A DNA stretch of 40,820 nt from Nitrososphaerota archaeon (GTDB lineage: Archaea > Iainarchaeota > Iainarchaeia > Iainarchaeales > GCA-2688035). The position numbers were made by a program, and so were the translations under genes. Shown piece after piece: positions 7,527 through 25,787 of this stretch. Every line of letters starts with the position of its first letter. Within the stretch, counting starts at the first letter, position 1. Location of the stretch: positions 1 to 40,820 of the forward strand of contig JAFCCH010000001.1 of assembly GCA_017610265.1 (NCBI GenBank), in the 5' to 3' direction. The notes under the pieces are model-generated. The model was not told where the DNA came from and did not search any database. It saw only the letters and a program-made list of their open reading frames with translations.

Positions 7527-7972
7527 GCTGTTTCCCTCACCCACATTTTCATTTCGGCTAAGTAGAAGTTAAGGTTTCCGTCGCTTTCGGTAAAAAAGCT
7601 TCTTTTTATCACTGCAAGGTCATCAAAGGTTTTGGCACAATCAGTTCTTAGAACAACAAAGACAGGATTTTTAAGGTCTGTTTCGGAATAGACAAATACC
7701 TCTGCACAAAGATTGTAGGGCAGGCTGTTCAAAAAAGACCTTATTTCAATTGTGCTTTTGTCTTCAACACTGGTTTCGAGTGCGCCTGTTTTGTCCAAAA
7801 CTGTTATTGCATCTCCAGCCGTTTCCTTTAGCAGGTTGCTGTTTCTTGCCCTATACTCAATTTCTCCGAGGAAAAACACGCTTGTTCCGATAAATATTAT
7901 CAAAACAAGGAGTGCGACAAAAGCATCAAGGGAAATCACAAACCCTTTTTTGTTTCTTGGAAAAAGCTTCAT
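7523..7972 (-). CDS. minor pilin-like protein
   Basis: This 149-residue protein has a class III-like N-terminus, MKLFPRNKKG then FVISLDAFVALLVLIIF, with an acidic residue (Asp) at mature position +6. The head domain has about 110 residues with two cysteines (NLCAEV and RTDCAK) that may pair. It overlaps both neighbours by ATGA (start at 7972, stop at 7523), so it is part of a strictly coupled string of pilin-like genes. A role as a minor pilin in the same filament is inferred from the N-terminus and the context. Confidence 0.75.
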   Translation of the reverse strand: MKLFPRNKKGFVISLDAFVALLVLIIFIGTSVFFLGEIEYRARNSNLLKETAGDAITVLDKTGALETSVEDKSTIEIRSFLNSLPYNLCAEVFVYSETDLKNPVFVVLRTDCAKTFDDLAVIKRSFFTESDGNLNFYLAEMKMWVRETA

Positions 7973-8478: not shown

Positions 8479-8857
8479 TTACAATCTCCCCGTTTATGTT
8501 TTCAATTTTCAATTCTTTTCCTAATGCAAGATTGTTTACAGTAACATTGTTTGTGAGCAATGCAGAATCTACAAAATTGTTCCGCCATGAAACTCTGGCG
8601 GCATTTCCTGCAATGCTTGGTGCAAATCCCTCAATTTGCTTTAACCTTATTGTTGTCTCTGCTCCGTTGCCTACAACAACTATTCCATTTATGTTTTCTG
8701 CAAGCTTGTCTGCAATTGTTTTGGCCTCGTGGTTTTCCTGGCTCAACGTTAAACCTTGTCTTTTTTCCCCGTAAATGCTTAATGAAAACAGAAGCAGGCT
8801 TACAAGCAGGACTACAACAATTAGGAACTCTATTGAAACTTGTGCTTTGCCATTCAT
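8465..8857 (-). CDS. pilin-like protein (class III signal peptide)
   Basis: This 130-residue protein has a clear class III signal: MNGKA then QVSIEFLIVVVLLVSLLLFSL, with the cut after Ala5 and Glu at +5 as in the major pilin. The head domain is about 95 residues of alternating hydrophobic and polar residues, probably a single beta-rich fold, without cysteines. The gene lies 9 bases after the large pilin gene and overlaps the next one. It may be a second structural pilin or a minor pilin. Confidence 0.8.
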   Translation of the reverse strand: MNGKAQVSIEFLIVVVLLVSLLLFSLSIYGEKRQGLTLSQENHEAKTIADKLAENINGIVVVGNGAETTIRLKQIEGFAPSIAGNAARVSWRNNFVDSALLTNNVTVNNLALGKELKIENINGEIVIDFA

Positions 8858-11047: not shown

Positions 11048-11278
11048 TCATTCTGTGTAGCCGCTTGCCCTAAGCCTTTTTTTGCCTCTGGTAAACATCC
11101 AGAATGCGCCGTAAAATGAGATTGCTGCAAGCAGGTAGAAGGGCACTGCATCAATGCTTACTCCTGACATTTGCTTTAGAATTCCTGCGACAATGGTTGT
11201 CAAAAAGATTGTTGTAAATACTACTGCTGCGCCAAAAAAGAAAATGGCTCTCAGAATCATTTTTTGCTTGTCATCCAT
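11048..11278 (-). CDS. small two-helix membrane protein, unknown
   Basis: This 76-residue protein has two hydrophobic helices (about 10-35 and 44-62) joined by a short loop (QMSGVSIDA) and ends in a basic tail (RGKKRLRASG). No family is recognised. It lies between the signalling genes and the large pilin gene, on the same strand, and only 48 bases before the pilin start. It could be a membrane partner of either group. The codon pattern and clean length make it a credible gene. Confidence 0.6.
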   Translation of the reverse strand: MDDKQKMILRAIFFFGAAVVFTTIFLTTIVAGILKQMSGVSIDAVPFYLLAAISFYGAFWMFTRGKKRLRASGYTE

Positions 11279-11320: not shown

Positions 11321-11371
11321 TTATTAGAGGAAAATTGTTTTGTTATAATTCTTATTAGAGGAAAATAGTTT
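11321..11371. repeat. direct repeat, about 20 bp, at the end of the 11355 gene
   Basis: TTATTAGAGGAAAAT[T]GTTT (11321-11340) recurs as TTATTAGAGGAAAAT[A]GTTT (11352-11371), 19 of 20 bases identical with a 31-base period. The second copy encodes the last codons and stop of the P-loop-less RecA-like gene; the first lies just after it. Confidence 0.7.
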
Positions 11372-11963
11372 CGTCGCAGTACTGGCTTATTCTTGTTAAA
11401 ACCTCTTTTTCTGCTTGGTCGTCCATTGAAATAAACACTGCGTTAATGCCTGGTTTTTTCCTTAGCTCTGTTGTAATTGCGTGGAAGAACTTTTCAACAA
11501 GCTGCTTGCCATGGTATGCTAATAATATTGAAATTGAGTCAAATACAAAGAACGAATTTTCGTTGTCTGGAGTGTTTTCAATTGCTTTGTAGATTGCAAT
11601 CTCCAAAGCCATTATTTCCTGCGGCCCTCCTACATAAACTAGGTTGTCATTTTCTTCTTCGTCATCTTTTCTTGTTGCAAAGTCTACAAAGGTAATTCCT
11701 TCTGTTGCAATTCCTTCTTGTTCAAACTTTGCTGCAAGGTTTTCAACAGGGCTTGTCCCGCTTGCGTAAATGCCTGTATTTCTTCCCTTGCTTAAAAGCT
11801 TTATAAGTTCAATTATTCCGTATTGGGCATTTTCTGCTTTCAATCCAAGAAGTGTAATTCCCTGTGCCCTTTCCAGGTCAAGCTTTTCTTCAAGCTCTCT
11901 GTTGAAGCAGCTTGCAACCGACAAAAGGTCTTGCAGTTCGTCGAATTTATCTTTTTCTTCCAT
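11355..11963 (-). CDS. P-loop-less KaiC/RecA-like protein (paralogue A)
   Basis: This 202-residue protein resembles the core of KaiC/RAD55-type RecA ATPases but has no Walker A. The first strand reads GITLLGLKAENAQYG where GxxxxGKT would be expected. A Walker B-like strand is kept (SFFVFDSISILLAY). The segment AAKFEQEGI..GITFVDF, then YVGGPQEIMALEIAIYKAI, aligns by eye with the products at 16861-17400 and 23276-23809. It differs from them by an N-terminal coiled extension of about 35 acidic/charged residues. It follows the intact KaiC-like gene on the same strand. It is probably a non-catalytic scaffold or a receiver partner; this is inference. Fold call is moderate. Confidence 0.65.
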   Translation of the reverse strand: MEEKDKFDELQDLLSVASCFNRELEEKLDLERAQGITLLGLKAENAQYGIIELIKLLSKGRNTGIYASGTSPVENLAAKFEQEGIATEGITFVDFATRKDDEEENDNLVYVGGPQEIMALEIAIYKAIENTPDNENSFFVFDSISILLAYHGKQLVEKFFHAITTELRKKPGINAVFISMDDQAEKEVLTRISQYCDETIFL

Positions 11964-11987
11964 GTTAAAATAGAATTACTTAATTGT

Positions 11988-13031
11988 TTAAAATACTTCT
12001 ACTTCTGGGTAAATTGTCAATCCGTCTTTTTCAAAGCCTATTGCAAGCAGTTTGTTTGTGTGCTTTGTGCCCCGCATCTTGAGAATTTCACAGCTGTGCA
12101 CCCTTACTCCTTTGTCTTCTTCTTTGCTGTAATAAAGGGAGATAATTGCGTCTGTCAAAAAGCCAACACTTCCCTCTTTTACTTCTGCTACCTTTGGCGG
12201 CAGTTCTGAAATGATTATTGAGGTGCAGCCCCATTTTTTTAGCAAGTCAAAAAAATCAAGGATGTTTTCCCTTCTTTGGTATTCGTCTTTGAAAAGCAGG
12301 CCATAGGATGTGATGGAATCAATTACAAGCCTTTTGGCGCCCATTGCCCTTATCTGGTCTCTTATTGGGCCGCCTCCTTCGCGCATTAGTTTTTCAACCT
12401 GGTGGGGTTTGTATTGCAGTACCTTGAACAAATTTTCTTTCTCTAATGCTTCAAAGTCAAAGCCAAATGCTGCACTATGCCTGTATAATGATTTTCTTTC
12501 TTCTTCAAATGAAATAAATATGCCTGGTTCCTTGTAGTCTATTGCGCCTCTGTACAGGAACTGTAATCCAAAAAGTGTTTTTCCTGTTCCTGCAGAGCCA
12601 ACGATTAAGACACTTGAGCCTTTTTCAAAGCCTCCTTCAACCAATGGGTTAAGTCCTGTAATGCCTGTGGGGACTCTTTCAACTCCTGCAAGTTTTCTTG
12701 CAACCTTTTCTACAACTGCTTTTGCCTTTGAAACAACCTTTTGCGGCATTGGCCTTGCAGGTTCTGTTTGTGCCTTTTCCTTTATTTGGGTTGTAACCTG
12801 CCTGAAGTCAAATCCCTCTGAGGCTTTTTCTCTTTGTTTTTTTGGCTTTGCCTGGAATGCGTTCATTTCCTTTTCAAGCTTTTTTTCTAAAGCAGGTTGC
12901 TGTTCTTTAGCCTGTTCGTCTTCTTTTTCAATTTCGTCTTCCCAGTCCTTTATCTCTGGTGCTTCTGGTTCAGCCTTTTTTTTCTTGGCTTTTCCGCCTA
13001 CTAATTTGCTAAAATTGGCTTTTTTCGGCAT
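11988..13031 (-). CDS. KaiC-like (RAD55-type) RecA-fold ATPase
   Basis: This 347-residue cytoplasmic protein has a highly charged, probably disordered N-terminus (1-110, Lys/Glu/Pro-rich) and then one KaiC domain. Motifs are PTGITGLNPLVEGGF (substrate-entry signature), Walker A GSAGTGKT at 145-152, FEEE at 175-178 (position of the catalytic Glu pair) and Walker B RLVIDSIT at 234-241. All ATP-binding residues are present, unlike in the three degenerate relatives nearby. In archaella the KaiC-like ArlH binds the ArlI/ArlJ motor. Here a KaiC-like gene lies in the signalling block just upstream of a pilus ATPase/platform set, so a similar regulatory contact is possible but unproven. Confidence 0.85.
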   Translation of the reverse strand: MPKKANFSKLVGGKAKKKKAEPEAPEIKDWEDEIEKEDEQAKEQQPALEKKLEKEMNAFQAKPKKQREKASEGFDFRQVTTQIKEKAQTEPARPMPQKVVSKAKAVVEKVARKLAGVERVPTGITGLNPLVEGGFEKGSSVLIVGSAGTGKTLFGLQFLYRGAIDYKEPGIFISFEEERKSLYRHSAAFGFDFEALEKENLFKVLQYKPHQVEKLMREGGGPIRDQIRAMGAKRLVIDSITSYGLLFKDEYQRRENILDFFDLLKKWGCTSIIISELPPKVAEVKEGSVGFLTDAIISLYYSKEEDKGVRVHSCEILKMRGTKHTNKLLAIGFEKDGLTIYPEVEVF

Positions 13032-13084
13032 TGTAATCGCTAAATAGTATGGTTTAATTCTTTAAAAAACTGCCTTTCCTTCTT

Positions 13085-14974
13085 TTATCTGTCGTTTTTC
13101 TTTTTGACACTTAGGTCTCGGCAAACAGCAACTCTTACAATTTTGCCTTCAATTTTGGTTTTCTTTGCGTTGATTTCTATTTTAAATTTTGAACCGTCTT
13201 TTCGCAAGCCAATGGTTTTGTATGCTTTTTCATATTGTGAACTAATTTTTTCTCTAACATTGCCTTTTTGTTCTGGCGCAATTAGGTTAATGGCGTTTGT
13301 TCCAATAAGTTCTTTTGAGGAATAACCAAAAATTTTGGCAAACTGGTTGTTGACGTCAATTATTTTGCCTTTGTCATGAATTAAAATTCCTTCAAAAACA
13401 ACTTCAGATAGCAACTTGAATCTTTTTCTGCTTGCTTCTAGTTTTTCTGTCGCATCTTTTTCTTCAGTAATATTTCTAACAGTTGCCTGCAAAAAATCCT
13501 TGCCTCTAATTTTCATCTTTGTCAAAAGAACTGTTGCCTTAAAGTCTGTTCCGTCAATTTTCCTGTGAGTCCATTCAAAGAAGTTTGAGCCCTTTTCAAT
13601 AGCAATTCCAATTTCCTTTTTTGCTCCTTCGGCGGAGGGCTTTCCGTTTGGCTGTGTTGGTGGTGAGAGTTCGCTAGGGTTTTTTGATATAAATTCTTTT
13701 TCTGTTTTTGCCCCGAACATTTTTAGGGTTGCCGGATTGCCTGCTGTAAAATTCCATGTTGGCGGTTCCAAAATCATTATTGCATCCCTTGAACTTTCGT
13801 ACAAGGTTTGGAATTTATTTTCTGCCTCTTCCTTTGCGGTAATTACTTTTCCCAGGCCAACTTCTCCCTTTGAAAGTCCTGTTCTGAGAATGGCTAGCTT
13901 TAGGCTTGCAAGAATTCTGTCTAGGGAATCTGTCAAGGATTGGATTTCGTCTATTCTGCTTTTCTTCAATTGCACGTCAAGCTTTCCTTTTGTTATAAGG
14001 TCAACGGTTTTGGTTAGTTTTTTTATCGGCTTTGAAATGAATTTTGCCACAAAAAATCCAATCAGGCTCATAATGGCGGTTATAACGATTATTATGCCCA
14101 AAGAGGTTCTGATTAATTCTTCTCTTGCATCGCCAAATGCTTCTGTTTCATTTATCTCTGCTAATAAGCACCAATCCATTTTAGGGATGTAAATATGGGT
14201 TCCTAAAACAGAAATGCCCTTATAATTATTAAATAAGTGAGTATCTTCTTCTGCCTCCGTGCCGCTATATTGAAAACAATGCTTTGTATTTTCCGTATCG
14301 ATTTTTTGCTTTAAGAAAGTGTCTTCTTCAAATCTTGAAGGGGTAACCATATACCCATCTTTGTTAATTAAATATATTTCACCGGTTTCCCCCAAACCTC
14401 CATAACTAGTCATTATCTTTTCCACTGTTTTTCCATCAGAACCAACAGCCACAACCCCTAGAAATTCCCCGTCTTGAATTAAAGGCCCTGATATGACTAT
14501 TCGAACACCGAAAACATCCTCCTCAAAGAAATCCGAAACAAAATAATTTTCTTTGCCGTTTATAAAAATATCTTTTCCGGAAATATCTCTGTCCACCAAG
14601 CTTTCTTCGGTGGAAATAATGATTTTGCCTTCGGGATTTGTAATTGAAATATGCAAAAAATTAGAGTTTTCCTTTTGTGTATCTGTAAGAATCTGTTCCA
14701 CGTTTATTTTATATTCTTCATCGCTGGTTTCCAAATAACTCTTCAAATGTTTCCGCATCCAGGTTTTGCTTGTAACCAATCTTGCCCTTTGCTCATACAT
14801 TTTTAAAGCTGTTTCAATATTATGCGCTTTTGAATTGGCAGTTGTTTCCAAATGGGAGATAACTGCGTTTTCCAATATCTCGGTTGATTGTAGGTAAAAA
14901 TAGTAGGTTCCACCAACGCTTCCAAACACGGTTGCAAAAACAAATACTAGGATAATCATTGTACTAAGTCTCAT
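13085..14974 (-). CDS. Cache-HAMP-PAS-PAS receptor without a kinase domain
   Basis: This 629-residue membrane receptor has a first TM helix (5-27), a large extracellular region (about 30-285) with double-Cache features such as NPEGKIIISTE and INKDGYMVTP, a second TM helix (289-312), HAMP (311-362), and two PAS domains (about 388-506 and 516-625). It ends right after the second PAS: there is no HisKA, HATPase, GGDEF or MCP output. Its start overlaps the stop of the histidine kinase gene by ATGA, behind an AGAGG ribosome site, so both are made together. It may be a sensory partner of that kinase. Both PAS domains closely resemble PAS6 and PAS2 of the eight-PAS kinase in this cluster. Confidence 0.85.
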   Translation of the reverse strand: MRLSTMIILVFVFATVFGSVGGTYYFYLQSTEILENAVISHLETTANSKAHNIETALKMYEQRARLVTSKTWMRKHLKSYLETSDEEYKINVEQILTDTQKENSNFLHISITNPEGKIIISTEESLVDRDISGKDIFINGKENYFVSDFFEEDVFGVRIVISGPLIQDGEFLGVVAVGSDGKTVEKIMTSYGGLGETGEIYLINKDGYMVTPSRFEEDTFLKQKIDTENTKHCFQYSGTEAEEDTHLFNNYKGISVLGTHIYIPKMDWCLLAEINETEAFGDAREELIRTSLGIIIVITAIMSLIGFFVAKFISKPIKKLTKTVDLITKGKLDVQLKKSRIDEIQSLTDSLDRILASLKLAILRTGLSKGEVGLGKVITAKEEAENKFQTLYESSRDAIMILEPPTWNFTAGNPATLKMFGAKTEKEFISKNPSELSPPTQPNGKPSAEGAKKEIGIAIEKGSNFFEWTHRKIDGTDFKATVLLTKMKIRGKDFLQATVRNITEEKDATEKLEASRKRFKLLSEVVFEGILIHDKGKIIDVNNQFAKIFGYSSKELIGTNAINLIAPEQKGNVREKISSQYEKAYKTIGLRKDGSKFKIEINAKKTKIEGKIVRVAVCRDLSVKKKNDR

Positions 14975-16848
14975 TTTTTTGCCTCTTGCTTTAATTGCTC
15001 TTTTTCTTTATTTAAGTATTTCTTTTTGCCTGTTTTCTGACTTTTTTTGATTGATGGATCAATTTCCTGTTCCTTGTTACTGCCAAAAATCTGCCTTACT
15101 TGTGTTGTTACAGTATCCAGCGTGTTTTTGTTAATTATCCCTTCCTTGTTCAATTTCTGCAAGTAATCTGTAAAAGACTCATAGTCCAGGCCCTTGCTTT
15201 GCAGAATGTTGAACTCTTTTTCTCCTAGTGGACCAAGGGCATTTATCAGAACCTTTTTGGCCTTTTTCCTAATGTCCTCCTGTGGTGAAAACAGCATCTT
15301 TATTGGCTTGATGTTCTTTTCCGGCGTGAACGGAACCGTAAAATAAAAAGTTGAGCCCTTTTCTTTTTCACTTTCAACCCAAAGCTTTCCCTTCTGTGAT
15401 TCGGCTATTCCCTTACAAATTGTCAGTCCAAGTCCGGTTCCTCCAAATTTTCTGTACATTGTTTGCTCTTCCTGGAAAAATGGCTCAAAAATGCGCAGCT
15501 GGTTTTCTTTTGATATTCCAATTCCTTTGTCCTTTACTGAGAAAAGAATGTCTGTTTTTCTTGCCTGGGCCGAAATTGTTATTGTGCTGTTTTCTGGAGA
15601 AAACTTGGTTGCGTTGTTGACAAGATTTCGTAAAATCTGCATTGTCCTGTCAGGGTCAACTTCTATTACTGGTAATCTGCCAATGTTTGCAACATACTTG
15701 ATTTTCTTTTCAGGCATGAATTCTTTCATGCTTTTGATTAACCTTTGAATATGCGGTGTCAGGTCTGCTTTAACAAACCTAAATTTTAGTCTTGCTGCTT
15801 CAATTCTTGAAATATCCAAAAAGTCCACAATTATGTTGTCTAGTCTGGTTGTGTTTCTCAGAACAAGATCAAGTGATTCAGCCTGTTTTTTGTTTAGCTT
15901 TCCGTAAAATCCCTCTTTCAACATTTGCAGCTGTGCTTTCATTGGAGTCATTGGGCTTCTAAGCTCGTGACTGGTGATTGACAAAAATTCTGTTTTAGCA
16001 TGATCCAACTCCTTATGTTCTTGCTCTGATTTCTCCAGGGCGTTTACAGTCATGTTAACTGTTGCACCCATTTCTTCTAATTCGTCGCCGCTTTTTATGT
16101 TAACCCTTACCTTAAAGTTTCCTTTTTTAATTTCGCGGATTGCGTTGCTTAGTTTTTTCACAGGTTGTACAATCGACTGCGAAATAAAAAATCCGATAAC
16201 ACTGCTCAAAAAAATGATAAAGAGCGTGCTTGATAAAAGAATTGTTTTGGTTTCAGTAATTTGTCTGTCAAACTTTTTTCCTTTATCTTCAAGCTCTGTT
16301 TTGTGTGTTTCAAGATGCCTGTTTACCTGATTACTTATCGGAAAGTACAGTGGCTTGTACAATTTGTTCATTTCATCCATCAATTGCCCACTTTCAGCCC
16401 CTCTGTCTTTCATTTCAACTATTTTATTGTTTACGATGACAAGTTGATCTACTTTTCTGTCCAATTCTTCGGCATCATCCACTTCTTCCGGTCCAAAATA
16501 AGATTCGTATTCCAGATGCCTTTTGGAGGCATTGCTGAGGTCTAATCCGGCTTCATCTATCCATTCTTTTACGGTTTTTCCATTTCTTTCAACATTGCCT
16601 CTTACAATATATCCAATGGTATATGCTTTGAGTTTTTCAAGATTTCCTTTTATTTCAAGTATTGCAATTGTGCCTGGCAAAATGTCTGTTTCAATTTCTT
16701 CGTATGTTGCCCCAATGTTGCTGATATAGCTGTTTTCTGAAATTGCAACAATTAAAAGAAAGATAATGGTTAAACCTATCCAAACCGCAAACTTTTTTCT
16801 GATTGACCCAAACAGCGCCTTTTTCAGGCTGAATCCTTTTTCTTCCAT
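14971..16848 (-). CDS. membrane histidine kinase with novel C-terminal extension
   Basis: This 625-residue sensor kinase has TM helices at 19-37 and 203-223 flanking a helical extracellular sensor of four-helix type, HAMP (224-275), HisKA with the phospho-acceptor His294 in SHELRSPMTP, and HATPase (about 395-508) with N box LRNLVNNATKF, G1 DKGIGIS and G2 GGTGLGL. All catalytic boxes are intact. After the kinase there are about 115 extra residues: a compact helical segment (about 515-590, with LGPLGEKEFNILQSKGL and LNKEGIINK) and a Lys-rich tail. I do not recognise this extension. The start is the ATG at 16848; a TTG two codons earlier is less likely. Likely partners are the receivers just upstream. 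Confidence 0.88.
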   Translation of the reverse strand: MEEKGFSLKKALFGSIRKKFAVWIGLTIIFLLIVAISENSYISNIGATYEEIETDILPGTIAILEIKGNLEKLKAYTIGYIVRGNVERNGKTVKEWIDEAGLDLSNASKRHLEYESYFGPEEVDDAEELDRKVDQLVIVNNKIVEMKDRGAESGQLMDEMNKLYKPLYFPISNQVNRHLETHKTELEDKGKKFDRQITETKTILLSSTLFIIFLSSVIGFFISQSIVQPVKKLSNAIREIKKGNFKVRVNIKSGDELEEMGATVNMTVNALEKSEQEHKELDHAKTEFLSITSHELRSPMTPMKAQLQMLKEGFYGKLNKKQAESLDLVLRNTTRLDNIIVDFLDISRIEAARLKFRFVKADLTPHIQRLIKSMKEFMPEKKIKYVANIGRLPVIEVDPDRTMQILRNLVNNATKFSPENSTITISAQARKTDILFSVKDKGIGISKENQLRIFEPFFQEEQTMYRKFGGTGLGLTICKGIAESQKGKLWVESEKEKGSTFYFTVPFTPEKNIKPIKMLFSPQEDIRKKAKKVLINALGPLGEKEFNILQSKGLDYESFTDYLQKLNKEGIINKNTLDTVTTQVRQIFGSNKEQEIDPSIKKSQKTGKKKYLNKEKEQLKQEAKK

Positions 16849-16860
16849 AAACAATCGCTT

Positions 16861-17400
16861 TTACACAGAGGGGTAGGCCTTGCTTAGGTCTATTACTCTG
16901 TCCACAAACATGCTTGTTTCTTGGACAAGCGCATCCTGTTCCTTTACCTTTATTGCATAGAACACTGCCTTGCTTTTTGTTGCCCTGACCCTTGCCGCGG
17001 TATTTGAAATAAATCTGGCAACAGGGACCTTGCCTTCGTAGACCATAAGGTTTGTGATTGAATCAAAAATAATATACTCAAAACCATGCCTTAAGAGTTT
17101 GGTTATTTTTATTGAGAGCTCGGTAAAGGCTGCCGGGGAACTGACATAATAACATTGATCTGTGTCGTCTACGTCCTTAATCGTCTTGGTGATTGCGTCA
17201 ACAAACACAAAATTGCTTATGTCAATTCCTTCTTTTTCAAAATTTTCCGTTAGTGCAGTAAATGTCTTGTTCAATGTAATGTAGCCAACAGTGCCTCCGC
17301 TGATTTGCTTTGCAATGTCTGAAGCAATTTCGTTGTATTGCATACTTGGCATTACTAACAGAATACTTTGGTTTTTGGACAACTCTTGAAGAATGTCCAT
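16861..17400 (-). CDS. P-loop-less KaiC/RecA-like protein (paralogue B)
   Basis: This 179-residue protein has the layout of a minimal RecA/KaiC core with the P-loop lost: the first strand reads SILLVMPSMQYNEIA, with no GK[T/S]. The Walker B-like strand is YIIFDSITNLMVYEG. Further shared blocks are LTENFEKEGIDISNFVFVDAI and YYVSSPAAFTELSIKITKLL. The gene starts one base after the stop of a receiver gene and lies 12 bases before the histidine kinase start, so receiver, pseudo-KaiC and kinase are translated as a unit. It is probably a protein-protein adaptor rather than an ATPase. This is inferred from the lost motif and the neighbours. Confidence 0.68.
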   Translation of the reverse strand: MDILQELSKNQSILLVMPSMQYNEIASDIAKQISGGTVGYITLNKTFTALTENFEKEGIDISNFVFVDAITKTIKDVDDTDQCYYVSSPAAFTELSIKITKLLRHGFEYIIFDSITNLMVYEGKVPVARFISNTAARVRATKSKAVFYAIKVKEQDALVQETSMFVDRVIDLSKAYPSV

Positions 17401-17401
17401 T

Positions 17402-17758
17402 TTATTCGCCCACTATCTTCTTTACTCTTTCAAGCAATGTGTTAACGTCAAAAGGCTTTTGAATAAAGTCCACAATATTTTTTTGCTTTAGAAGCTCTTC
17501 CTTTTCAGCTTCACCTGTTCTTACAACACTGAGGTAAGAGATTTTAATGTTTTTAATCTGTGGAACGATTTGCTTTACTGGAGTGCCAGGCATCATAATA
17601 TCCAGTAGTATTAGGTCTGGTTTTGTTTCCTTTAACTTTTCCAGGCAGTCGTCTCCATTGACTGCTTCAACTACTGTGTAACCTTTTCCTTCAAGAATTG
17701 TCCTGACAGTAATTCTGATGTCTTTTTCATCGTCAACAATCATTATTGTTTTTCCCAC
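17402..17758 (-). CDS. single-domain response regulator (receiver)
   Basis: This 118-residue CheY-like receiver has the acidic pair DD (9-10), phospho-acceptor Asp53 in LLDIMMPG, a Ser (SYLSVV) at the switch position and the conserved Lys in FIQKPF. It ends at the receiver fold with no output domain. It lies 3 bases after another receiver gene and 1 base before pseudo-KaiC paralogue B. It shares the SVV switch region and FIQKPF with the 17762-18115 receiver, so those two form a subgroup. It must act by protein contact or as a phosphate relay. Confidence 0.9.
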   Translation of the reverse strand: MGKTIMIVDDEKDIRITVRTILEGKGYTVVEAVNGDDCLEKLKETKPDLILLDIMMPGTPVKQIVPQIKNIKISYLSVVRTGEAEKEELLKQKNIVDFIQKPFDVNTLLERVKKIVGE

Positions 17759-17761
17759 TTT

Positions 17762-18115
17762 TTATTCCCCCAAAACTTCTTTTATCTTTCCAATAAATGT
17801 TTTCTCAGAAAACGGCTTTTGAATAAAGCCATCAACTTCGTCCATTAAAACTTCCTTTTGAGGCACAACTGAAACATAAAGGAGTTTTGTTCGCTCGTTT
17901 GCCTTTTCTTTAATCAACTTAACAAGGTCATAGCCTGAAAGGGTTGGCATTCTAATATCTACCAGAATTAAATCAAAGTCCTTTATTTTGAGTAAGTCCA
18001 TTGCCTGGGCTCCGTTTGTGGCTATGGTTGCCTCATAACCCTCTTTTTCAATCAAATTTTTAATGCTCTGCAAATCATCAAAAACGTCGTCAATTACCAA
18101 AATGCTTTTTGCCAT
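17762..18115 (-). CDS. single-domain response regulator (receiver)
   Basis: This 117-residue receiver has DD at 9-10, Asp53 in LVDIRMP, Ser in LYVSVV, and the Lys in FIQKPF; all phosphorylation residues are kept. It is the first gene after a strong promoter: CTTTATATAAAAG at 18163-18175 and AGGAGG (18124-18129) eight bases before the ATG. This start therefore probably opens a transcript that runs through the second receiver, pseudo-KaiC B, the HAMP kinase and the Cache receptor. No output domain. Confidence 0.9.
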   Translation of the reverse strand: MAKSILVIDDVFDDLQSIKNLIEKEGYEATIATNGAQAMDLLKIKDFDLILVDIRMPTLSGYDLVKLIKEKANERTKLLYVSVVPQKEVLMDEVDGFIQKPFSEKTFIGKIKEVLGE

Positions 18116-18123
18116 ATCTAAAT

Positions 18124-18191
18124 CCTCCTAACAATAACAAGTTTCCAAATAATTACTAGTTTCTTTTATATAAAGAATTCGTTTTCGAAAA
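18124..18191 (-). promoter_or_regulatory. promoter of the receiver/pseudo-KaiC/kinase operon
   Basis: On the minus strand there are, in order, a perfect palindrome TTTTCGAAAA (18182-18191), a TATA box CTTTATATAAAAG (18163-18175), and AGGAGG (18124-18129) eight bases before the receiver ATG. The palindrome sits just upstream of the TATA/BRE position, where archaeal activators bind. Confidence 0.55.
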
Positions 18192-18195
18192 GAGA

Positions 18196-18582
18196 CTATA
18201 AAAAGCCCTTTAGCCAGGTCATTGCCTTTTCCTTGTCTGAAAACATCTTTGCTGGACAAGCTGGCTTGTTTACCTTGAGAAAAAGGTTTCCAACAGTTCT
18301 GCTCAACGGCGATTTTGCAAGCAGTGCAATCGCGCTCCAGACCTTGGCGCTTTCCTTTCCTGCAAAATATTGTTTTGCCAGCATGCTTATCTTCTTGACT
18401 TTGTCTAAATAAACAATTTGCGGCACCTTCTTTCCATTGCTTAACCTTTTGGACCTTTTAACATCTTCTTTGGCATCTGCCAAATTAAGCTCAATACCCT
18501 CATGGTAATCGGTGTGTAAAATTCCAAATTCGTCAAGCCTGATTCGACCCTTTTTGTATCGCAAAACTTTTTCTTCTGCCAT
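18196..18582 (-). CDS. DUF7793/STAS-like small protein
   Basis: This 128-residue soluble protein resembles the DUF7793 type of STAS/SpoIIAA-like proteins: a beta start (RIRLDEFGILHTDYHEG), then ELNLADAKEDVK, LSNGKKVPQIVYLDKVKKI, an AKQYFAG helix, SPLSRTVGNLFLKVNKP and a C-terminal MTWLKGFL helix. These proteins are often found beside sensor kinases, mostly in bacteria. The start is the ATG at 18582, eight bases from AGAGG; the ATG two codons earlier would leave only two bases. Its ribosome site overlaps the stop of the eight-PAS kinase, so the two are likely co-translated. Role (adaptor or anti-sigma-like partner) unknown. Family call is from recalled pattern only. Confidence 0.6.
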   Translation of the reverse strand: MAEEKVLRYKKGRIRLDEFGILHTDYHEGIELNLADAKEDVKRSKRLSNGKKVPQIVYLDKVKKISMLAKQYFAGKESAKVWSAIALLAKSPLSRTVGNLFLKVNKPACPAKMFSDKEKAMTWLKGFL

Positions 18583-18593
18583 AAACATTGCCT

Positions 18594-21500
18594 CTATTTG
18601 CCTTCAAATGGAATTGAGAAATAGAAAGAGCTTCCCTTACCCAATTTGCTTTTGACCCAAATTTTTCCCTTGTGGGCGTCAATTATTTGCTTGCAGATGC
18701 TTAGGCCAAGCCCTGTTCCTGGCACTGTCTTCTCTGCCTGGAAAAATTGTGTAAACAGCTTTTTCTGGTTAGCCTTGCTTATTCCTGTTCCAAAATCCCT
18801 TATTTCAACAACAAAGTTGTTGCCTTTTTTTTCTGCAATTATCCTGACTTCTCCGCCAATTCTGCTGAATTTTATTGCGTTCTCCAAAAGGTTTTTGACA
18901 ACAGTGAAGATTTCTTCCGAGTCAAGTATAATCTGGCCTGTTTTTGCTATATCTTTAACAATTTTGATTTCTTTGTTGTTTGCCTCTATTTCCATTGACT
19001 CAATAACCTCTTTCATAAGGTTTTGAATTGATGTTTTGACTTTTCTTATGGCAATTCCTTTTGCTTTAATCTTTGAGGTTTCCAAAACCTTTCCAATAGT
19101 GTTTTTTAGCCTGTCCTCTTCAAGCAGCATTGTTTCAATTATTTCCTGTTGGGGTTCAGTTAATGAGCCTATTTTTCCTTCTGCCAATGATTCTGTAAAG
19201 CTCATCATTGAGGTCAGAGGTGTTTTTAATTCGTGGGATGCTGCGCTTAGGAACTCGTCTTTTGCCTTGTCAAGCCTTTGCAGTTCAACTACCTGGTTTT
19301 TGATTGTTTCCTCGGCCTTCTTTTGTTCAGTAATGTTTTTAGCCAGTCCAATCACTGCAATTGTCTTGCCTTTTTCTCCTTTTATCGGGCTTAGGGTAAC
19401 ACTTATCCATGAAATTTTGTCTTGAACAACTATTTTTGTCTGTGACCCTTTTGGCTTTCCTGTTTTAAAAACAATATCTAAATTTGCAGAATAACTGTCA
19501 GCAAGTTTTTTTGGAAATAATTCAAAAATGCTTTTTTCAACAATTTTTTCAGGTTTTTGTTTTAATTCTTGGGCAGCTGCCTTATTTACAGACAAAACCT
19601 TTTTGTCGGGGCTAATCATAAAAATCATGTCACTTGCGCTTTCAACAAGGCTTCTGTATTTTTCTTCACTTTCCCTAATTTTAAGATTTAGGTTTTGCAG
19701 TTGGTTGATATTTGCCTTTAGGAGAATCTGGTTCAGCCTAAGGTTTTCTTCAGTCTTCTTTTTTTCGGTAATGTCTCTTGAAACATTGGCGAGATAAATT
19801 GGTTTTCCTGTATTTTCATCTTTTATTGTAAATGTCATGGTATGTACATCGGTTATTTTTCCTGTTTTAATATTTTTGTAGGCAAGTTCACCTTCCCATT
19901 TTCCTTTCTTTAACGCTGTTGGAATCAGTTCTTTTTTCACTGTGTTCATAAACTTGTCCGGAATTACTTCAAAAATTTTGTGGTTATTAATCTTCTTTGG
20001 ATTAATTCCCAGTATCTTGCTTCCAACTCTATTGAGGAACACCATTCTTCCATTCAAATCAGTCAGGTTCACAACTTCGCTGTTGTATTTTGAAATGCTT
20101 GCAAGTTTTTTTATTTTTTCTTCAGCTTTTTTTCTATCACTTATATCACGAACCGTTGCTTGCAGTAAATTTTTTCCATTCAGAGTTATTTTGTTTAGTA
20201 AAATTGTTGCATAGAAATCTTCTCCACTTATTTTTTTGTGGGTCCATTCGAAAAAGTTGGTTCCTTTTTTGAGTGCTTTTTTAATCATTTTTTTGGCTTT
20301 AATGCTTGAAAGCTGTCCATCAGGCTGATACTTTGGAGAAATCTCCCAAGGCCTTAAAGTAGTAAATTCTTTTTCGTCTTTTACACCAAACATTTTTATT
20401 ATTGAGGGATTTCCTGAAGTGAATTTCCAACTTGGAGGTTCCAAGGTCATCAAAGCATCTTTTGAATTGTTAAACAGTGTTCTGAATTTTTCCTCACTTT
20501 CTTTTAATGCTTCTTCAGCCTTTTTCTTTTCTGTTATGTTATCATAAACGCCAATAATTCCGATTATTTTTTCATTGATGTCCCTCAAAGGCCTCTTGCT
20601 TGTTCTTAGCCATATTTTATTTCCTTTTGAGTCTATTTGAAGCTCTTCATAAAACAATTTTTCTTTTCCGCTTTCCATAACTTGTTTATCGTCCTTTCTA
20701 TACAATTTTGCCTGTTTTTTCCAGTTCATTTCAAAATCGGTTTTGCCAACAAGGTTTTCAGATTTTCTCATTCCGGCGTCTTTGGCAAATATTTCGTTGC
20801 TTCCTAAATAAACACAATTTAGGTCCTTCCAGAAAACTCTTGAAGGGATTGATTCAAGAACCAACTTTAACATCCCTTGAGATTTTTTTACCTCTTCGTC
20901 GGCTTTCTTTCTTTCAGTTATGTCTCTTCCTATTGAAATTACAAGTGGCTTGTTTTCTTCGCTTTTTATAAGTGAGGCCTTGTATTCAAATGGTATCCTT
21001 TTACCTGTTTTGGTTATTAAGGAGAGTTCAACAATGCCGCTTCCTGTTTTAAGAATCTGTTTAATAACAGCGCTTGCTTTCTTCAAGTCTTTTTTGGAGT
21101 AATAAGAATTAGGGGCCTTCATTTTAGCAATTTTTTTGTCTGAATAACCTGAAACCTTTGAGAAATTCTTGTTCCACCTAATTGCCTTTCCGGTCTTTGA
21201 ATTAAATGCAAAGAAGGTGTCTGTTTGGGCATTGATGGCTTTGTCGGTAAATTCTTTTTCTTTCTTCAATGCAATATCTGCATTTTTTCTTTTGGTTATG
21301 TCTGAAAAAATTCCATCTACATACTGTTCCTTGCCTTTTTTGTATGCTTGCAGAGATCTCTCATACAACCATATCCAGTTTCCATTTTTGTGTTTAATCC
21401 TGTATTTAACGTCATAATTTTTTCCCTTTGAAAAAAGGTTTGCAAACGCCTTCTTTACTTTTTTAAGATCTTTTGGGTGAATTCTCCCAAACCATAATTT

Positions 21501-22424
21501 GCCTCCAGCTTTGTAAATTTCTTTTTGTGTAAAACCATAAACTTTTTTAATATTGGGGCTTATAAAAACAGTTTTTCCTTGCTTGCTTGTAGTCCAAGTT
21601 ACATCAGGTATGTTTTCGATAAGATGCCTGTATTGCATTTCGCTTTTCTTTAATTCTTCTTCCGCTTTTTTTTCTTTAGTGATGTCTCGGCAGACAGCGA
21701 TTCTTATTATCTTGTCCTCGCTTTTAATCTTTTTTGCATGAATCTGCAGCAGGAATTTTGTTCCGTTTTTTTTCAGGCCAATTGTTTTATAGGGCTTTTC
21801 AAACTCTTTGCGAATTTTTTCCAGAACGGCGTCTCTTTCTTTAGGAGCAATTAGTTGCAGTGCATTCTTTCCCAAAAGCTCTTTTTTTGAATAACCAAAA
21901 ATTTTTGCAAACTGATTGTTAAGGTCTAATATCTTACCCCTGTCGTGGATAAGAACTCCTTCAAAAACAACCTGTGAAAATCTCTTAAAGCGACTTATTC
22001 CTTTTTTAATTTCAGTCTGCTTTCTTTCCAATGTAGTGTATGCCTTTTCATCGGTTATGTCGTGAAAGACCTCTAAAATTCCTTTCTTGCCGTTTGGAAG
22101 CCTTATTCCTGTATGGCTTACCCTATAGGTTCTGTTGCCTGCGATTCCTTCAACCTCAATTGTTTTAGTCTGACCAATTTTAATAGGCTTTTTTATAGGG
22201 CAATTGCTGCATTGCTGTTTGTTCTTCTTATAAACTTTGAAACACTTTTTCCCAATTGCTTTTTTTCCAAAAATCTTCAAAAAGAATTTGTTCAAATAGA
22301 GAATTCGAAGCTTTTCGTCGACAATGTTAACACCTAAAGGCATTAAGTCCAAGGTGTGTTTTGCTGCGTCTGAGTTAAACTCTTCTAATTTGGCAATAGC
22401 TGTTTTTCTCGGCTTCTTTCCCAT
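18594..22424 (-). CDS. soluble histidine kinase with eight PAS domains
   Basis: About 1276 residues with no membrane segment. Eight PAS domains lie at roughly 22-127, 142-252, 259-379, 387-505, 512-637, 642-767, 772-890 and 917-1035. HisKA follows with the acceptor His near 1064 (SHELKTPLTS), then HATPase (about 1167-1274) with NLLENAIKF, DFGTGIS and GTGLGL; all boxes are intact. PAS1 has a Cys cluster (C61, C72, C75 in CFKVY and QQCSNCP), which could bind metal, heme or respond to redox. Linkers end in the usual DIT-x-KKKAEE coiled coils. The start used is the ATG at 22424; a GTG at 22433 is possible. It is a cytoplasmic multi-input sensor, probably feeding the flanking receivers. Confidence 0.92.
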   Translation of the reverse strand: MGKKPRKTAIAKLEEFNSDAAKHTLDLMPLGVNIVDEKLRILYLNKFFLKIFGKKAIGKKCFKVYKKNKQQCSNCPIKKPIKIGQTKTIEVEGIAGNRTYRVSHTGIRLPNGKKGILEVFHDITDEKAYTTLERKQTEIKKGISRFKRFSQVVFEGVLIHDRGKILDLNNQFAKIFGYSKKELLGKNALQLIAPKERDAVLEKIRKEFEKPYKTIGLKKNGTKFLLQIHAKKIKSEDKIIRIAVCRDITKEKKAEEELKKSEMQYRHLIENIPDVTWTTSKQGKTVFISPNIKKVYGFTQKEIYKAGGKLWFGRIHPKDLKKVKKAFANLFSKGKNYDVKYRIKHKNGNWIWLYERSLQAYKKGKEQYVDGIFSDITKRKNADIALKKEKEFTDKAINAQTDTFFAFNSKTGKAIRWNKNFSKVSGYSDKKIAKMKAPNSYYSKKDLKKASAVIKQILKTGSGIVELSLITKTGKRIPFEYKASLIKSEENKPLVISIGRDITERKKADEEVKKSQGMLKLVLESIPSRVFWKDLNCVYLGSNEIFAKDAGMRKSENLVGKTDFEMNWKKQAKLYRKDDKQVMESGKEKLFYEELQIDSKGNKIWLRTSKRPLRDINEKIIGIIGVYDNITEKKKAEEALKESEEKFRTLFNNSKDALMTLEPPSWKFTSGNPSIIKMFGVKDEKEFTTLRPWEISPKYQPDGQLSSIKAKKMIKKALKKGTNFFEWTHKKISGEDFYATILLNKITLNGKNLLQATVRDISDRKKAEEKIKKLASISKYNSEVVNLTDLNGRMVFLNRVGSKILGINPKKINNHKIFEVIPDKFMNTVKKELIPTALKKGKWEGELAYKNIKTGKITDVHTMTFTIKDENTGKPIYLANVSRDITEKKKTEENLRLNQILLKANINQLQNLNLKIRESEEKYRSLVESASDMIFMISPDKKVLSVNKAAAQELKQKPEKIVEKSIFELFPKKLADSYSANLDIVFKTGKPKGSQTKIVVQDKISWISVTLSPIKGEKGKTIAVIGLAKNITEQKKAEETIKNQVVELQRLDKAKDEFLSAASHELKTPLTSMMSFTESLAEGKIGSLTEPQQEIIETMLLEEDRLKNTIGKVLETSKIKAKGIAIRKVKTSIQNLMKEVIESMEIEANNKEIKIVKDIAKTGQIILDSEEIFTVVKNLLENAIKFSRIGGEVRIIAEKKGNNFVVEIRDFGTGISKANQKKLFTQFFQAEKTVPGTGLGLSICKQIIDAHKGKIWVKSKLGKGSSFYFSIPFEGK

Positions 22425-22456
22425 AGACCCCACGTGCTTTGTTTAAGAGTAAGATA

Positions 22457-22825
22457 TTATGCAAGCAATGCCTTGACTCTTTGAACAAGGTCCCTGTTTT
22501 TGAACGGTTTTCTGATATATTCAAGAACGCCCATTTCCTTCAAGTCGTTTAACCCTGTTTCAGAGAACTTTGCAACAGTCAAAACCATTAGCTTTGACTT
22601 TTTCAGGTTTTCGTCGGCGCAAATCTTTTCGCAGAGTTGGACTCCGCTCATTTCTGGCATAAAAACATCAATTATCACCAAGTCGTAAAATGTTTGCTCC
22701 ATTTTCTCAAGGGCTTCCACTGCATTTGACGCACATTCCACTTCAAGGCCTTCACCTGCCAGCGCAATTCCAACTGCGTTGAGAATGCTTGGTTCGTCAT
22801 CCACCACTAAAACTTTTTTTGCCAT
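22457..22825 (-). CDS. single-domain response regulator (receiver)
   Basis: This 122-residue receiver has DD at 9-10, Asp53 in IIDVFMPEMSG, Thr in VLTVAKFSE and Lys in YIRKPF. No output domain. The ATG at 22825 is ten bases after GGAG and is preferred over a GTG three codons earlier, which would sit one base from it. It is a close paralogue of the receiver at 25419-25787: both share CEKI, VLTVAKFSE and RV-A-L near the end. It lies directly upstream of the eight-PAS kinase, its likely phospho-donor. Confidence 0.9.
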   Translation of the reverse strand: MAKKVLVVDDEPSILNAVGIALAGEGLEVECASNAVEALEKMEQTFYDLVIIDVFMPEMSGVQLCEKICADENLKKSKLMVLTVAKFSETGLNDLKEMGVLEYIRKPFKNRDLVQRVKALLA

Positions 22826-22846
22826 TTGCTTCACGCTCCAGAATTT

Positions 22847-23212
22847 TTATTTTCCAAGTACGTTTTTAATTTTTTCAATAATCTCTTTGTTGTTAAACGG
22901 TTTCATTATATAATCGCCAACGCCTTCTTTTTTCAGTTCCTCAATTTTTTTCTCAGAAATTTTAAAAACCGCCGTAATCATTATAACTTTTGTTTTCTTG
23001 TTGAACTTTTTGAACTCTTCAAAGAATTCCCAACCACCCATCAGTGGCATTAGAATATCAACAAGGACAAGGTCAACATTGTCTTTTTTCAATTCTGTTA
23101 AAGCGTCTTCTCCGTTGTCAAGTGAAAGAACTTCAAAGCCCTCGTTTTCAAGAATTATTTTTAGGGCTTTTCTTGTGGATTCGTCGTCGTCTACAACCAT
23201 TATTTTTGTCAT
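22847..23212 (-). CDS. single-domain response regulator (receiver)
   Basis: This 121-residue receiver has a run of three Asp (8-10), Asp52 in LVDILMPLMGG, Thr in VIMITAVF and Lys in YIMKPF. It ends with the receiver fold. It lies between pseudo-KaiC paralogue C and another receiver, all on the same strand with short gaps. Its segment FFEEFKKFNKKTK is more basic than in its neighbours. It needs a protein partner for output. Confidence 0.9.
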   Translation of the reverse strand: MTKIMVVDDDESTRKALKIILENEGFEVLSLDNGEDALTELKKDNVDLVLVDILMPLMGGWEFFEEFKKFNKKTKVIMITAVFKISEKKIEELKKEGVGDYIMKPFNNKEIIEKIKNVLGK

Positions 23213-23275
23213 GTTTTATCCCTTAACCTGTTTTATCTAATGGTTTTCTTTCTTAAAAAACATTCCATTTTGCTA

Positions 23276-23809
23276 TCATTCAAGACTTGCGTATTCAATT
23301 ATCTTGTCTGCAAACAATGCAAGTTCTTTCATTAACCCTTTTTCAAAGTCTGACTTTAAAATTATATAAAGGCCTCTTGTATTTGTGCCCTTTGTAAGAG
23401 TAATCAAATGGTGTAAGAATTTTATTGTCTTGAATTCGTCGTTGTGAACAGCAAGTGAACTAACTGAATCCAGAAACAAAAGCTCGGTTTCGTCCTTAAT
23501 TGCTTTTGAAACCTCTATTGCAAGCTCGGTTAAGGCTGTTGGCGCTGCAATAAAGCGGCTGTCTGCAGTAACAGGCTCTTCTCCGTGCTTTTTTGAACAT
23601 CCAACAAATTTGTAATTTTCAATTGAAATGCCTTCGTTTGTAAATGTTTCTGCAAGGCTTTTGACCTGGGTTGTTATACTGACATAACAAATGCTTCCCA
23701 CGACTTTTGAGAGCTTTTGGTTTAGCTTAATGATGCTTCCTTTGTACTCGGATTCGTTCAGCACTAGAACAATATTTTGGTTTTCTTCAACCTCTTTTAC
23801 AAGATTCAT
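23276..23809 (-). CDS. P-loop-less KaiC/RecA-like protein (paralogue C)
   Basis: This 177-residue protein matches paralogue B in length and block order: first strand NIVLVLNESEYKGSI (no Walker A), LAETFTNEGISIENYKFVGC, FIAAPTALTELAIEVSKAI, and a Walker B-like LLFLDSVSSLAVH. It is flanked on both sides by receiver genes with 17 and 63 base gaps. The same pairing of a pseudo-KaiC with receivers is seen at 16861-18115. It is probably an adaptor that recognises a receiver; this is inference. Confidence 0.67.
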   Translation of the reverse strand: MNLVKEVEENQNIVLVLNESEYKGSIIKLNQKLSKVVGSICYVSITTQVKSLAETFTNEGISIENYKFVGCSKKHGEEPVTADSRFIAAPTALTELAIEVSKAIKDETELLFLDSVSSLAVHNDEFKTIKFLHHLITLTKGTNTRGLYIILKSDFEKGLMKELALFADKIIEYASLE

Positions 23810-23826
23810 TTTCGCTGTCTCCTTGT

Positions 23827-24189
23827 TTAAACCAAGTTCTTTATTCTTTTGCCAAATTCCTTTACTAAAACAGGCTTTTGGATATAGTCAACCGGCTTAA
23901 GCTTTTTAATGATTTTTTCTCCGGTTTCACTTAATTCTGCCACTGTTAAAAACGCAACTTTTTGGTCCTTTGTTTTTGGATTTGCCCTAATCCTTTCAAC
24001 TGCTTCTCTGCCGGACATTTTTGGCATGAAAATATCCATTAGGACAAGGTCAAACTTTTCCTTTTCAATCATTTCCAATGCCTTTTTTGCGCTGTTTGCA
24101 GTTGCTGCCTCAAAACCCTCTGTTTCCAAAATCTTTTTTATTGATGACAGAATATCCTGCTCGTCGTCAACAATCAACACTTTCTTCAT
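23827..24189 (-). CDS. single-domain response regulator (receiver)
   Basis: This 120-residue receiver has DD at 8-9, Asp52 in LMDIFMPKMSG, Thr in FLTVAELSE and Lys in YIQKPV. The start at 24189 shares ATGA with the stop of the PAS histidine kinase and is served by a GGAGG just before; the longer frame to 24279 only runs back into the kinase gene. Such coupling makes it the cognate receiver of that kinase. No output domain. Confidence 0.92.
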   Translation of the reverse strand: MKKVLIVDDEQDILSSIKKILETEGFEAATANSAKKALEMIEKEKFDLVLMDIFMPKMSGREAVERIRANPKTKDQKVAFLTVAELSETGEKIIKKLKPVDYIQKPVLVKEFGKRIKNLV

Positions 24190-25391
24190 TTCTTTTTTCC
24201 TCCCTTTGTTTCCTCTTTCTTTAACGGAATGCTGAAATAAAAGGTTGTTCCTTTGCCAAGGCCCTTGCTTTCTGCCCAAATCTTGCCGCTGTGAAGGTTC
24301 ACCAACTCCTTGCAGATGTTTAGGCCAAGTCCTGACCCTTGGCCTCGCCTGCTTGAAAGATTTTCTAACTGGGTAAATGGTTTGAAGATCTTTTCCAAAT
24401 TTTCCTTGTCTATTCCTGGGCCGTCATCCTTAATGCTTACAATAACATTTCCGTTCTTTTTTCTTGTCTCAACCCAGACCATGCCATTAACTTCAACAAA
24501 TTTTAATGTGTTGTCCAGGAGGTTTATCAGAACGCTTGACATTTTGTCTGAATCGCATTCTACTTTGGGAATTTTTCCAAGCTTTTGAATTACAACAACC
24601 TTTTTGCCAAGGGCCTTGCTTCTCATTGTTTCAAGTGTATCCTCTATCAGCTCATTCAAGTCAATCATTTTTTTGTTTAGCTTGAGCTTTCCTCTTTGAA
24701 TTCTGCTTAGGTCAAAAATTCCCGAAATCATTGTGTTAAGCCTTTTTAAGTTTCTTTCAATCATTTCAATGCTTTCAAGCTGTTCCTTGTTAAGGCTTCC
24801 AAAATCTCCTCTTTTAAGCAGCTGAAGCTGAATCATCAAAGGAGTAACAGGTGTCTTTAATTCATGGGATGTTCTTGCAAGAAAATCTGTTTTCATTGTG
24901 TCAAGTGTTTTTAATTCGTCAAGCGCCTTGTTTAATTTGTCAATAGTTGCCCTTAGAACAAGCTCTTTTTCACGCAGTGCTTTCTCAGAATGTTTCTCCT
25001 CAGTAATATCTCTTTGTATTAAAATAGAATACAAAATCCTTCCATGTTCGTCTCTTAGGGTTGTTGCATTAAGAATAACATTTCTTTTCTCGTTTTTTTT
25101 TGAAACAATTGTTACTTCTTCATTTCTTAAAATGCCTTTCTTTTTCCATTTGGCAAAAAGCTTTTTTACTTTTTTCTTTGCCTCTGGTGCATAAATTATT
25201 TTAAGTGACTTTCCTACAAGCTCTTTTTTCTTGTAGCCAAGTGCGTCCAGGGCTGCCTTGTTTACGTTAATAATCTCTCCTTTTGTTGAAATCAGGTAAC
25301 AGTAGTGCGGCCCATTTTCGAAAAATTGAGTAAAGCGTTCTTCACTTTCTTTTAACGCCTCTTCAAGCGTTGCCTTTTTTGCACTTGCCAT
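24186..25391 (-). CDS. soluble PAS histidine kinase
   Basis: This 401-residue cytoplasmic kinase has one PAS domain (about 15-133, with FFENGPHYCYLIS and NVNKAALDALGY), a coiled linker, HisKA (about 163-230, His176 in SHELKTPVTP) and HATPase (about 280-392) with N box INLLDNTLKF, G1 DDGPGID and G2 GSGLGL. All catalytic residues are present. It lies between two receivers: one ends ahead of it with a 27-base gap and one overlaps its stop. The C-terminus is Lys-rich. Typical length for this architecture. Confidence 0.92.
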   Translation of the reverse strand: MASAKKATLEEALKESEERFTQFFENGPHYCYLISTKGEIINVNKAALDALGYKKKELVGKSLKIIYAPEAKKKVKKLFAKWKKKGILRNEEVTIVSKKNEKRNVILNATTLRDEHGRILYSILIQRDITEEKHSEKALREKELVLRATIDKLNKALDELKTLDTMKTDFLARTSHELKTPVTPLMIQLQLLKRGDFGSLNKEQLESIEMIERNLKRLNTMISGIFDLSRIQRGKLKLNKKMIDLNELIEDTLETMRSKALGKKVVVIQKLGKIPKVECDSDKMSSVLINLLDNTLKFVEVNGMVWVETRKKNGNVIVSIKDDGPGIDKENLEKIFKPFTQLENLSSRRGQGSGLGLNICKELVNLHSGKIWAESKGLGKGTTFYFSIPLKKEETKGGKKK

Positions 25392-25418
25392 GTTTGAAGC
25401 CCCTATTTAAGAGGTGTT

Positions 25419-25787
25419 TTATTGCAGGCTGGCGTTGACTCTTTGAACCAATTCCTTGTTTGTAAATGGCTTGTGAATATAGTCCGAAAGCCAGAGGCCT
25501 TGCACATCCTTGATTCCTGATTCCGAAAACTTTGCCACAGTCAGGACAATTACCTTTGTTGTCCTAAGGTCTTTGTCTTCGGAAATTTTTTCGCAGAGTT
25601 CCAGGCCAGACATCTCTGGCATAAAAATATCTACGATTGCCAAATCAAAATGTGTTTGCTTCATTTTTTCCAATGCCTCTTTTGCGCTTGCAGCAAACAT
25701 TAGCTCGTAGTCGGTGCCTTCAAGCGCAAGTTTTATGGCATTTCTAATGCTTTCTTCGTCGTCAACAACCAGAACTTTTTTAGTCAT
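25419..25787 (-). CDS. single-domain response regulator (receiver), first gene of the signalling cluster
   Basis: This 122-residue receiver has DD at 9-10, Asp53 in IVDIFMPEMSG, Thr in VLTVAKFSE and Lys in YIHKPF. It is the promoter-proximal gene of the signalling block: a TATA-like CTATAAAAT (about 25834-25843) lies about 50 nt upstream and AAGGAG precedes the ATG. It is close in sequence to the 22457-22825 receiver. No output domain. It probably pairs with the PAS kinase that follows. Confidence 0.9.
   Translation of the reverse strand: MTKKVLVVDDEESIRNAIKLALEGTDYELMFAASAKEALEKMKQTHFDLAIVDIFMPEMSGLELCEKISEDKDLRTTKVIVLTVAKFSESGIKDVQGLWLSDYIHKPFTNKELVQRVNASLQ

Follow-up and report, generated by a model that had tools for sequence, protein, structure and literature searches.

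Makarova is said to have proposed in 2017 that KaiC and inactivated KaiC proteins form signaling hubs of archaea. Some 40% of the response regulators of archaea consist of a receiver domain and nothing else, and most of these stand-alone receivers were reported to have no conserved gene neighborhood from which a target might be inferred (Galperin 2018, PMC5847659). The same paper described inactivated KaiC domains fused to receivers (REC-DUF835 and iKaiC-REC) and viewed archaeal receivers as working by protein contact. KaiC family genes have also been found beside archaeal pili, with the second component unknown in most cases (Makarova 2016, PMC4858521), and ArlH has been reviewed as a regulator of the archaellum ATPase ArlI (PMC8978795). 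We analyzed a window of 40,820 nucleotides, the entire contig JAFCCH010000001.1 (G000:C68) of an assembly from Iainarchaeota (Diapherotrites) that totals 1.28 Mb and is about 82% complete. On its minus strand, a block at positions 11355 to 25787 encodes three histidine kinases (HKs), a kinase-less dCache receptor, six stand-alone receivers (RECs), one KaiC, three pseudo-KaiC proteins (pKs; KaiC relatives without a P-loop), and one DUF7793 protein. This composition, claimed in a preliminary description made from the sequence alone, held together with its coordinates upon Pfam analysis and checks of the catalytic residues and the P-loop. Comparison of gene neighborhoods gives good support to a conserved pairing of REC1 with pK2 and of REC5 with pK3.

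To recover pK2-type loci, GTDB contigs were scanned with pK2 alone as the query, with no receiver included, and 28 loci from several archaeal phyla were found. A REC1 gene was directly adjacent to pK2 in 26 of the 28, and in the remaining two a single pK gene lay between them. The gaps between the paired genes ran from -14 to 45 bp, often as 4-bp overlaps, and the REC1 family signature DIMMPG was present at all 28 loci. Seven of the loci belonged to genomes that had already been examined via their receivers, and 21 were independent. At several loci, the REC1-pK2 pair persisted without a nearby kinase. Of the 87 genomes of the phylum, 9 contain pK2, clearly set apart by score (at least 211 versus 146 bits), and all 9 were HK positive and had a receiver adjoining pK2. 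REC5 adjoined pK3 in five genomes, the one studied here and four relatives, and the HK3-REC5-pK3 set was present in G003, G005, G022, and G048.

Among 73 relatives, receivers were detected in 22 and HisKA kinases in 13. Twelve of the 13 HK-positive genomes contained a receiver-adjacent pK, versus none of the 60 HK-negative genomes (Fisher 7e-13, uncorrected for shared ancestry), and 26 of 44 receiver matches fell within 2 kb of a pK, the exceptions coming mostly from G013 and G032. The genes recur in relatives as two modules. Module A consists of REC2-REC1-pK2-HK1-dCache receptor, joined in some cases by hemerythrin and KaiC genes, and module B has HK3, REC5, and pK3 in adjoining genes. One contig titled Chloroflexota (L107) bears a Diapherotrites-like module; its record name looks wrong, because the contig matches G002, which is placed in the genus of the window. 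Thermoplasmata-type loci (L139, L141, and L137) show the order REC-pK-pK-KaiC, an independent association of receiver, pseudo-KaiC, and KaiC.

Pfam assigns pKs to DUF7504, KaiC, or DUF835 with weak to moderate E values. In the window, the DUF7504 match lies above the cutoff for pK1 and pK3 and below it for pK2, which is assigned as an inactivated KaiC by its fold. All three proteins lack the P-loop motif and retain a Walker-B-like hhhDS. An AlphaFold2 model of pK2, made with 30 aligned relatives (pLDDT 93.9, pTM 0.90), has a RecA/KaiC fold that is nearest to PH0284 (2dr3; TM 0.74 by query) and also matches KaiC and FlaH/ArlH. The top PDB sequence match of the pK profile is ArlH/FlaH (4yds), a weak match at 0.0019. 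Although the pK2 fold is similar to that of ArlH, pK1 to pK3 do not qualify as ArlH, since the P-loop is absent.

In the pK tree, a 99/97 branch separates a receiver class containing pK2 and pK3 from a KaiC/pilus class, to which pK1 belongs along with the pKs that are paired with KaiC in other pilus clusters. Receiver-class pKs are receiver adjacent in 41 of 46 cases versus about 3 of 48 in the other class, counts that are inflated because part of the receiver class was gathered from receiver neighborhoods; the pK2 scan is unaffected. The preliminary description held that pseudo-KaiC genes occurring without receivers in relatives would speak against its model; pilus-class pKs, the class of pK1, do occur in this way, and pK2 and pK3 do not. 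A second pilus-like cluster of the genome (L092, G000:C21, 6519-7877) has its own tandem of a 235-aa KaiC and a 216-aa pK, conserved in many relatives. Proteins of about 670 to 790 aa with a central pK domain, and no identity assigned to the rest of the chain, are encoded near KaiC or pilus genes at L069 (1999-4374) and L105 (6503-8524), and the seventh receiver of the assembly (G000:C30; L046 5080-6501) adjoins a gene whose product has two pK domains fused together.

The adjacency of REC1 to pK2, that of REC5 to pK3, and the split between pK classes support the earlier suggestion that the receivers exert their effect through contact with KaiC-like proteins. Several observations weigh against it. 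The neighborhood of REC and pK genes is not proof of contact, and the correlation of REC1 with pK2 distances is weak (r 0.34, with 112 of 5,000 permutations as high). Mirroring of the REC1 and pK2 trees was dropped as support, given this weak value and its confounding by shared ancestry. Complex prediction, a check named in the preliminary description, was run for REC1-pK2 only, as a single chain rather than a multimer, using a natural in-frame read-through from L119 with the TGA read as a residue. Both halves were well folded, but the pTM of 0.62 (shallow alignment, short linker, unphosphorylated) gives no confident mutual placement of REC1 and pK2. That result would fit receivers that do not bind pseudo-KaiCs at all, the genes being co-inherited or co-expressed cassettes whose receivers take up surplus phosphate, shuttle it in cross-talk, or bind kinases or receptors. 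Consistent with such roles, six receivers face three kinases, and four of the six (REC2, REC3, REC4, and REC6) lack a pK counterpart of their own. However, the specific adjacency of REC1 and pK2 over deep divergence, the retention of the pair where a kinase is missing nearby, and the published natural REC-iKaiC fusions (PMC5847659) argue for binding, and we regard the cassette explanation as improbable.

Between 25787 and 2192, the minus-strand genes follow one another without a gap longer than 96 bp, and several of them overlap by 4 bp (Table 1).

Table 1. Genes of the signaling block and pilus cluster, in gene order from position 25787
Feature	Coordinates	Strand	Basis or remark
REC6, stand-alone receiver	25419..25787	-	PF00072 5e-26; active-site residues present
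HK3, PAS-HisKA-HATPase histidine kinase, module B	24186..25391	-	Pfam; HK boxes
REC5, stand-alone receiver, pK3 partner	23827..24189	-	Pfam; neighborhoods
pK3, P-loop-less KaiC relative, receiver class	23276..23809	-	DUF7504 1.5e-7; tree
REC4, stand-alone receiver	22847..23212	-	Pfam; residues
REC3, stand-alone receiver	22457..22834	-	Pfam; residues
HK2, multi-PAS cytoplasmic histidine kinase, 1279 aa	18594..22433	-	Pfam; residues
DUF7793/SpoIIAA-like protein, accessory	18196..18588	-	PF25056 7e-30
REC2, stand-alone receiver, module A	17762..18115	-	Pfam; residues; neighborhoods
REC1, stand-alone receiver, DIMMPGTPV signature, pK2 partner	17402..17758	-	Pfam; residues; neighborhoods
pK2, P-loop-less KaiC relative, receiver class	16861..17400	-	Tree; predicted fold
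HK1, 4HB-HAMP-HisKA-HATPase histidine kinase	14971..16854	-	Pfam; near pK2 in most relatives
dCache-HAMP-PAS-PAS receptor without kinase domains	13085..14974	-	Pfam; 4-bp overlap with HK1
KaiC-family ATPase, pilus-linked clade	11988..13031	-	PF06745 1.6e-54
pK1, P-loop-less KaiC relative, KaiC/pilus class	11355..11963	-	DUF7504 3.6e-11; tree
76-aa probable membrane protein	11048..11278	-	At or near KaiC/pilus boundary in several relatives
Large pilin-like surface protein, first pilus-cluster gene	8867..10999	-	Class III-type N terminus; conserved first gene
Four small pilin-like genes (8465, 7969, 7523, 6633)	6633..8857	-	Sequence; relatives
Pilus assembly ATPase (T2SSE)	4665..6575	-	PF00437 9e-32
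Two pilus platform proteins (T2SSF)	3781-4668 and 2747-3784	-	PF00482
Pilin, class III signal-like N terminus	2192..2650	-	N-terminal sequence
Hemerythrin-like protein, recurrent in module A of relatives	1249..1806	-	PF01814 5e-11

The REC5 open reading frame as listed begins at TTG 24279, and the ATG at 24189, which gives a 4-bp overlap with HK3, is likely the true start. All six RECs retain the acidic pair, phospho-Asp, T/S, and Lys residues, and HK1, HK2, and HK3 each have HisKA and HATPase_c domains with the H, N, and G boxes retained. The block thus has the kinase His and ATP-binding boxes and the receiver phospho-Asp that define two-component systems. Across the assembly, all three HKs and six of the seven RECs found sit in the block, and their clustering there is therefore not chance; the HATPase matches in the assembly are the three HKs and one weak other. 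Pfam detected no HPt or hybrid kinase-receiver domain in the block, so the multi-step phosphorelay of the preliminary wording was rejected, and the block looks like parallel or branched two-component signaling. A chemotaxis (Che) variant, which would have an MCP and CheA, was also rejected, provisionally: the preliminary description had noted neither in the block, and no MCP signaling domain was found in the assembly, an absence that is provisional because the assembly is about 82% complete. DUF7793 was rejected as a core component, being present in just 3 of 73 relatives.

The KaiC of the block is an intact ATPase, with Walker A (145), FEEE (175), and Walker B (236) motifs and the catalytic Glu. 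The pilus cluster downstream has the T2SSE, the two T2SSF proteins, and pilins with class III signals expected of an archaeal type IV pilus. It had been called complete, which is true of these genes and not of the prepilin peptidase, absent from the cluster and represented by three candidates elsewhere in the assembly. A KaiC gene, frequently with that for the 76-aa protein, lies directly upstream of the same pilus cluster in G018, G029, G032, G034, G046, G050, and G058. In the KaiC tree, the window KaiC is nested in a 12-row clade (100/99) whose members are mostly located upstream of this pilus, and the orthologous KaiC of G003, a genome of the same genus, belongs to this clade and sits at the end of module A. 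The sister KaiCs are from Woesearchaeota (L122 and L126), where REC1, pK2, HK1, KaiC, and pilus genes are found together. Indeed, L122 carries on one strand REC1 (5699-6055), pK2 (6052-6591), an HK (6588-7295), KaiC (7301-8065), pilins, T2SSE (11216), and two T2SSF genes. The link to the pilus, previously said to be by position only, is thus adjacency in the window and more than that, since it recurs in Woesearchaeota and other Iainarchaeota, with a KaiC orthologous to the pilus-upstream KaiCs. We infer that the pilus is an output of the block.

Other observations fit this output less well. Pilus core genes were present in the retrieved flanks of just 6 of the 28 REC1-pK2 loci, against about 2 expected from a rough rate (P about 0.015), and the pilus may therefore not be the sole output. 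The contig that carries module A in G003 is not the one that carries the pilus, and a second KaiC clade accompanies pK and HK genes mostly away from pili. The 22 loci without a pilus core gene, the separation in G003, and this second clade would also be explained if the receiver/pseudo-KaiC/kinase modules were a real signaling unit directed at another KaiC-bound target or at transcription, with the pilus an occasional neighbor. We consider that alternative unlikely, although it carries appreciable weight; the KaiCs of the window and of the G003 module fall in the pilus-linked clade, and the window and L122 show operon-like continuity. The window KaiC shares PF06745, Walker A, Walker B, and the Glu motif with cyanobacterial KaiC but is single-domain and, by alignment, has G/F in place of the S/T autophosphorylation pair. 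It is thus not a clock-type KaiC, and a clock-like phosphorylation cycle is therefore unlikely, a point against the proposed pathway.

The 76-aa protein recurs near the KaiC/pilus boundary across the order and is a possible anchor. The hemerythrin-like gene comes after the last pilin gene, and homologs are found within module A or next to it in G003, G071, and the Woesearchaeota loci L124 and L127. This membership of the module in several relatives hints at a possible redox or oxygen cue. At L077, L078, L080, L081, and L089, pilus ATPases of 850 to 1,090 aa are encoded with a divergent pK gene adjoining, followed by further unlabeled genes.

The pathway that we favor runs from kinase to receiver to partner pseudo-KaiC to KaiC to pilus motor, with the pseudo-KaiCs as docking targets of stand-alone receivers, and we judge it slightly better than an even chance. 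Three competent HKs, presumably aided by the kinase-less dCache receptor, face six phosphorylatable RECs. To judge from the conserved pairing, phosphorylated REC1 and REC5 would bind their neighbors pK2 and pK3. These pKs might then act, via the intact KaiC and its pseudo-partner of the pilus class, pK1, on a ring of KaiC type located at the motor of the pilus, possibly by mixing into it, in analogy to ArlH acting on the archaellum motor ATPase. The sensed signal would thereby alter pilus assembly or activity, the stimulus and the direction of its effect being conjectural. Control could instead lie in pilus gene expression rather than in motor activity, with the pseudo-KaiCs acting on transcription like other archaeal KaiC-linked regulators. 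KaiC ATPases have been discussed under regulation of pilus expression (Makarova 2016, PMC4858521), but no DNA-binding domain was found above the Pfam cutoff in the block, where a subthreshold helix-turn-helix match in the HK1 tail was the only trace, and we give transcriptional control very little credence.

By this analysis, one receiver family, REC1, gains a single partner gene that is conserved over several archaeal phyla and small enough for direct expression, and otherwise unexplained archaeal stand-alone receivers gain a concrete candidate partner. In this DPANN archaeon with its reduced genome, almost every two-component protein detected is encoded in a single block next to pilus genes. 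A broader and more tentative proposal, which we would sooner doubt than believe, is that dead KaiCs are a general receptor class for archaeal stand-alone receivers, each family coevolving with its own pseudo-KaiC, which would enter mixed KaiC rings and carry phospho-signals to motor ATPases. If true, this would connect kinases to a surface filament in DPANN archaea without any chemotaxis system.

The hubs of Makarova 2017, known to us by citation in PMC6393860 and PMC5847659, are reportedly alike in placing KaiC-family proteins and P-loop-less relatives with two-component parts; they are unlike this block in that here the REC1 family is tied to the pK2 family across several phyla and the pKs form two classes. 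The preliminary description knew of no described system with this composition; the principle of KaiC hubs and inactivated-KaiC outputs is already proposed (PMC4858521, PMC5847659, and, reportedly, Makarova 2017). In the literature searched, which did not include Makarova 2017, we found no account of the specific receiver/pseudo-KaiC pairing, its multi-phylum spread, the division of pKs into two classes, or the compact operon with the pilus genes; parts of this may have been noted in Makarova 2017. REC-DUF835 and iKaiC-REC regulators (PMC5847659) likewise couple a receiver to an inactivated KaiC, in a fused protein there and in separate, often overlapping genes here. The archaellum switch CheY-CheF-ArlCDE-ArlH-ArlI (PMC8978795) also passes a signal to a type IV filament motor via a KaiC-fold protein; unlike that switch, the present system has no CheA and no MCP that we found, is linked to a pilus rather than an archaellum, and has pseudo-KaiCs without the P-loop with which ArlH binds ATP. 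Like the pilus-linked KaiCs described previously (PMC4858521), the window KaiC stands beside pilus ATPase and platform genes, and here, in contrast to those cases, receivers and pseudo-KaiC are the candidate second component.

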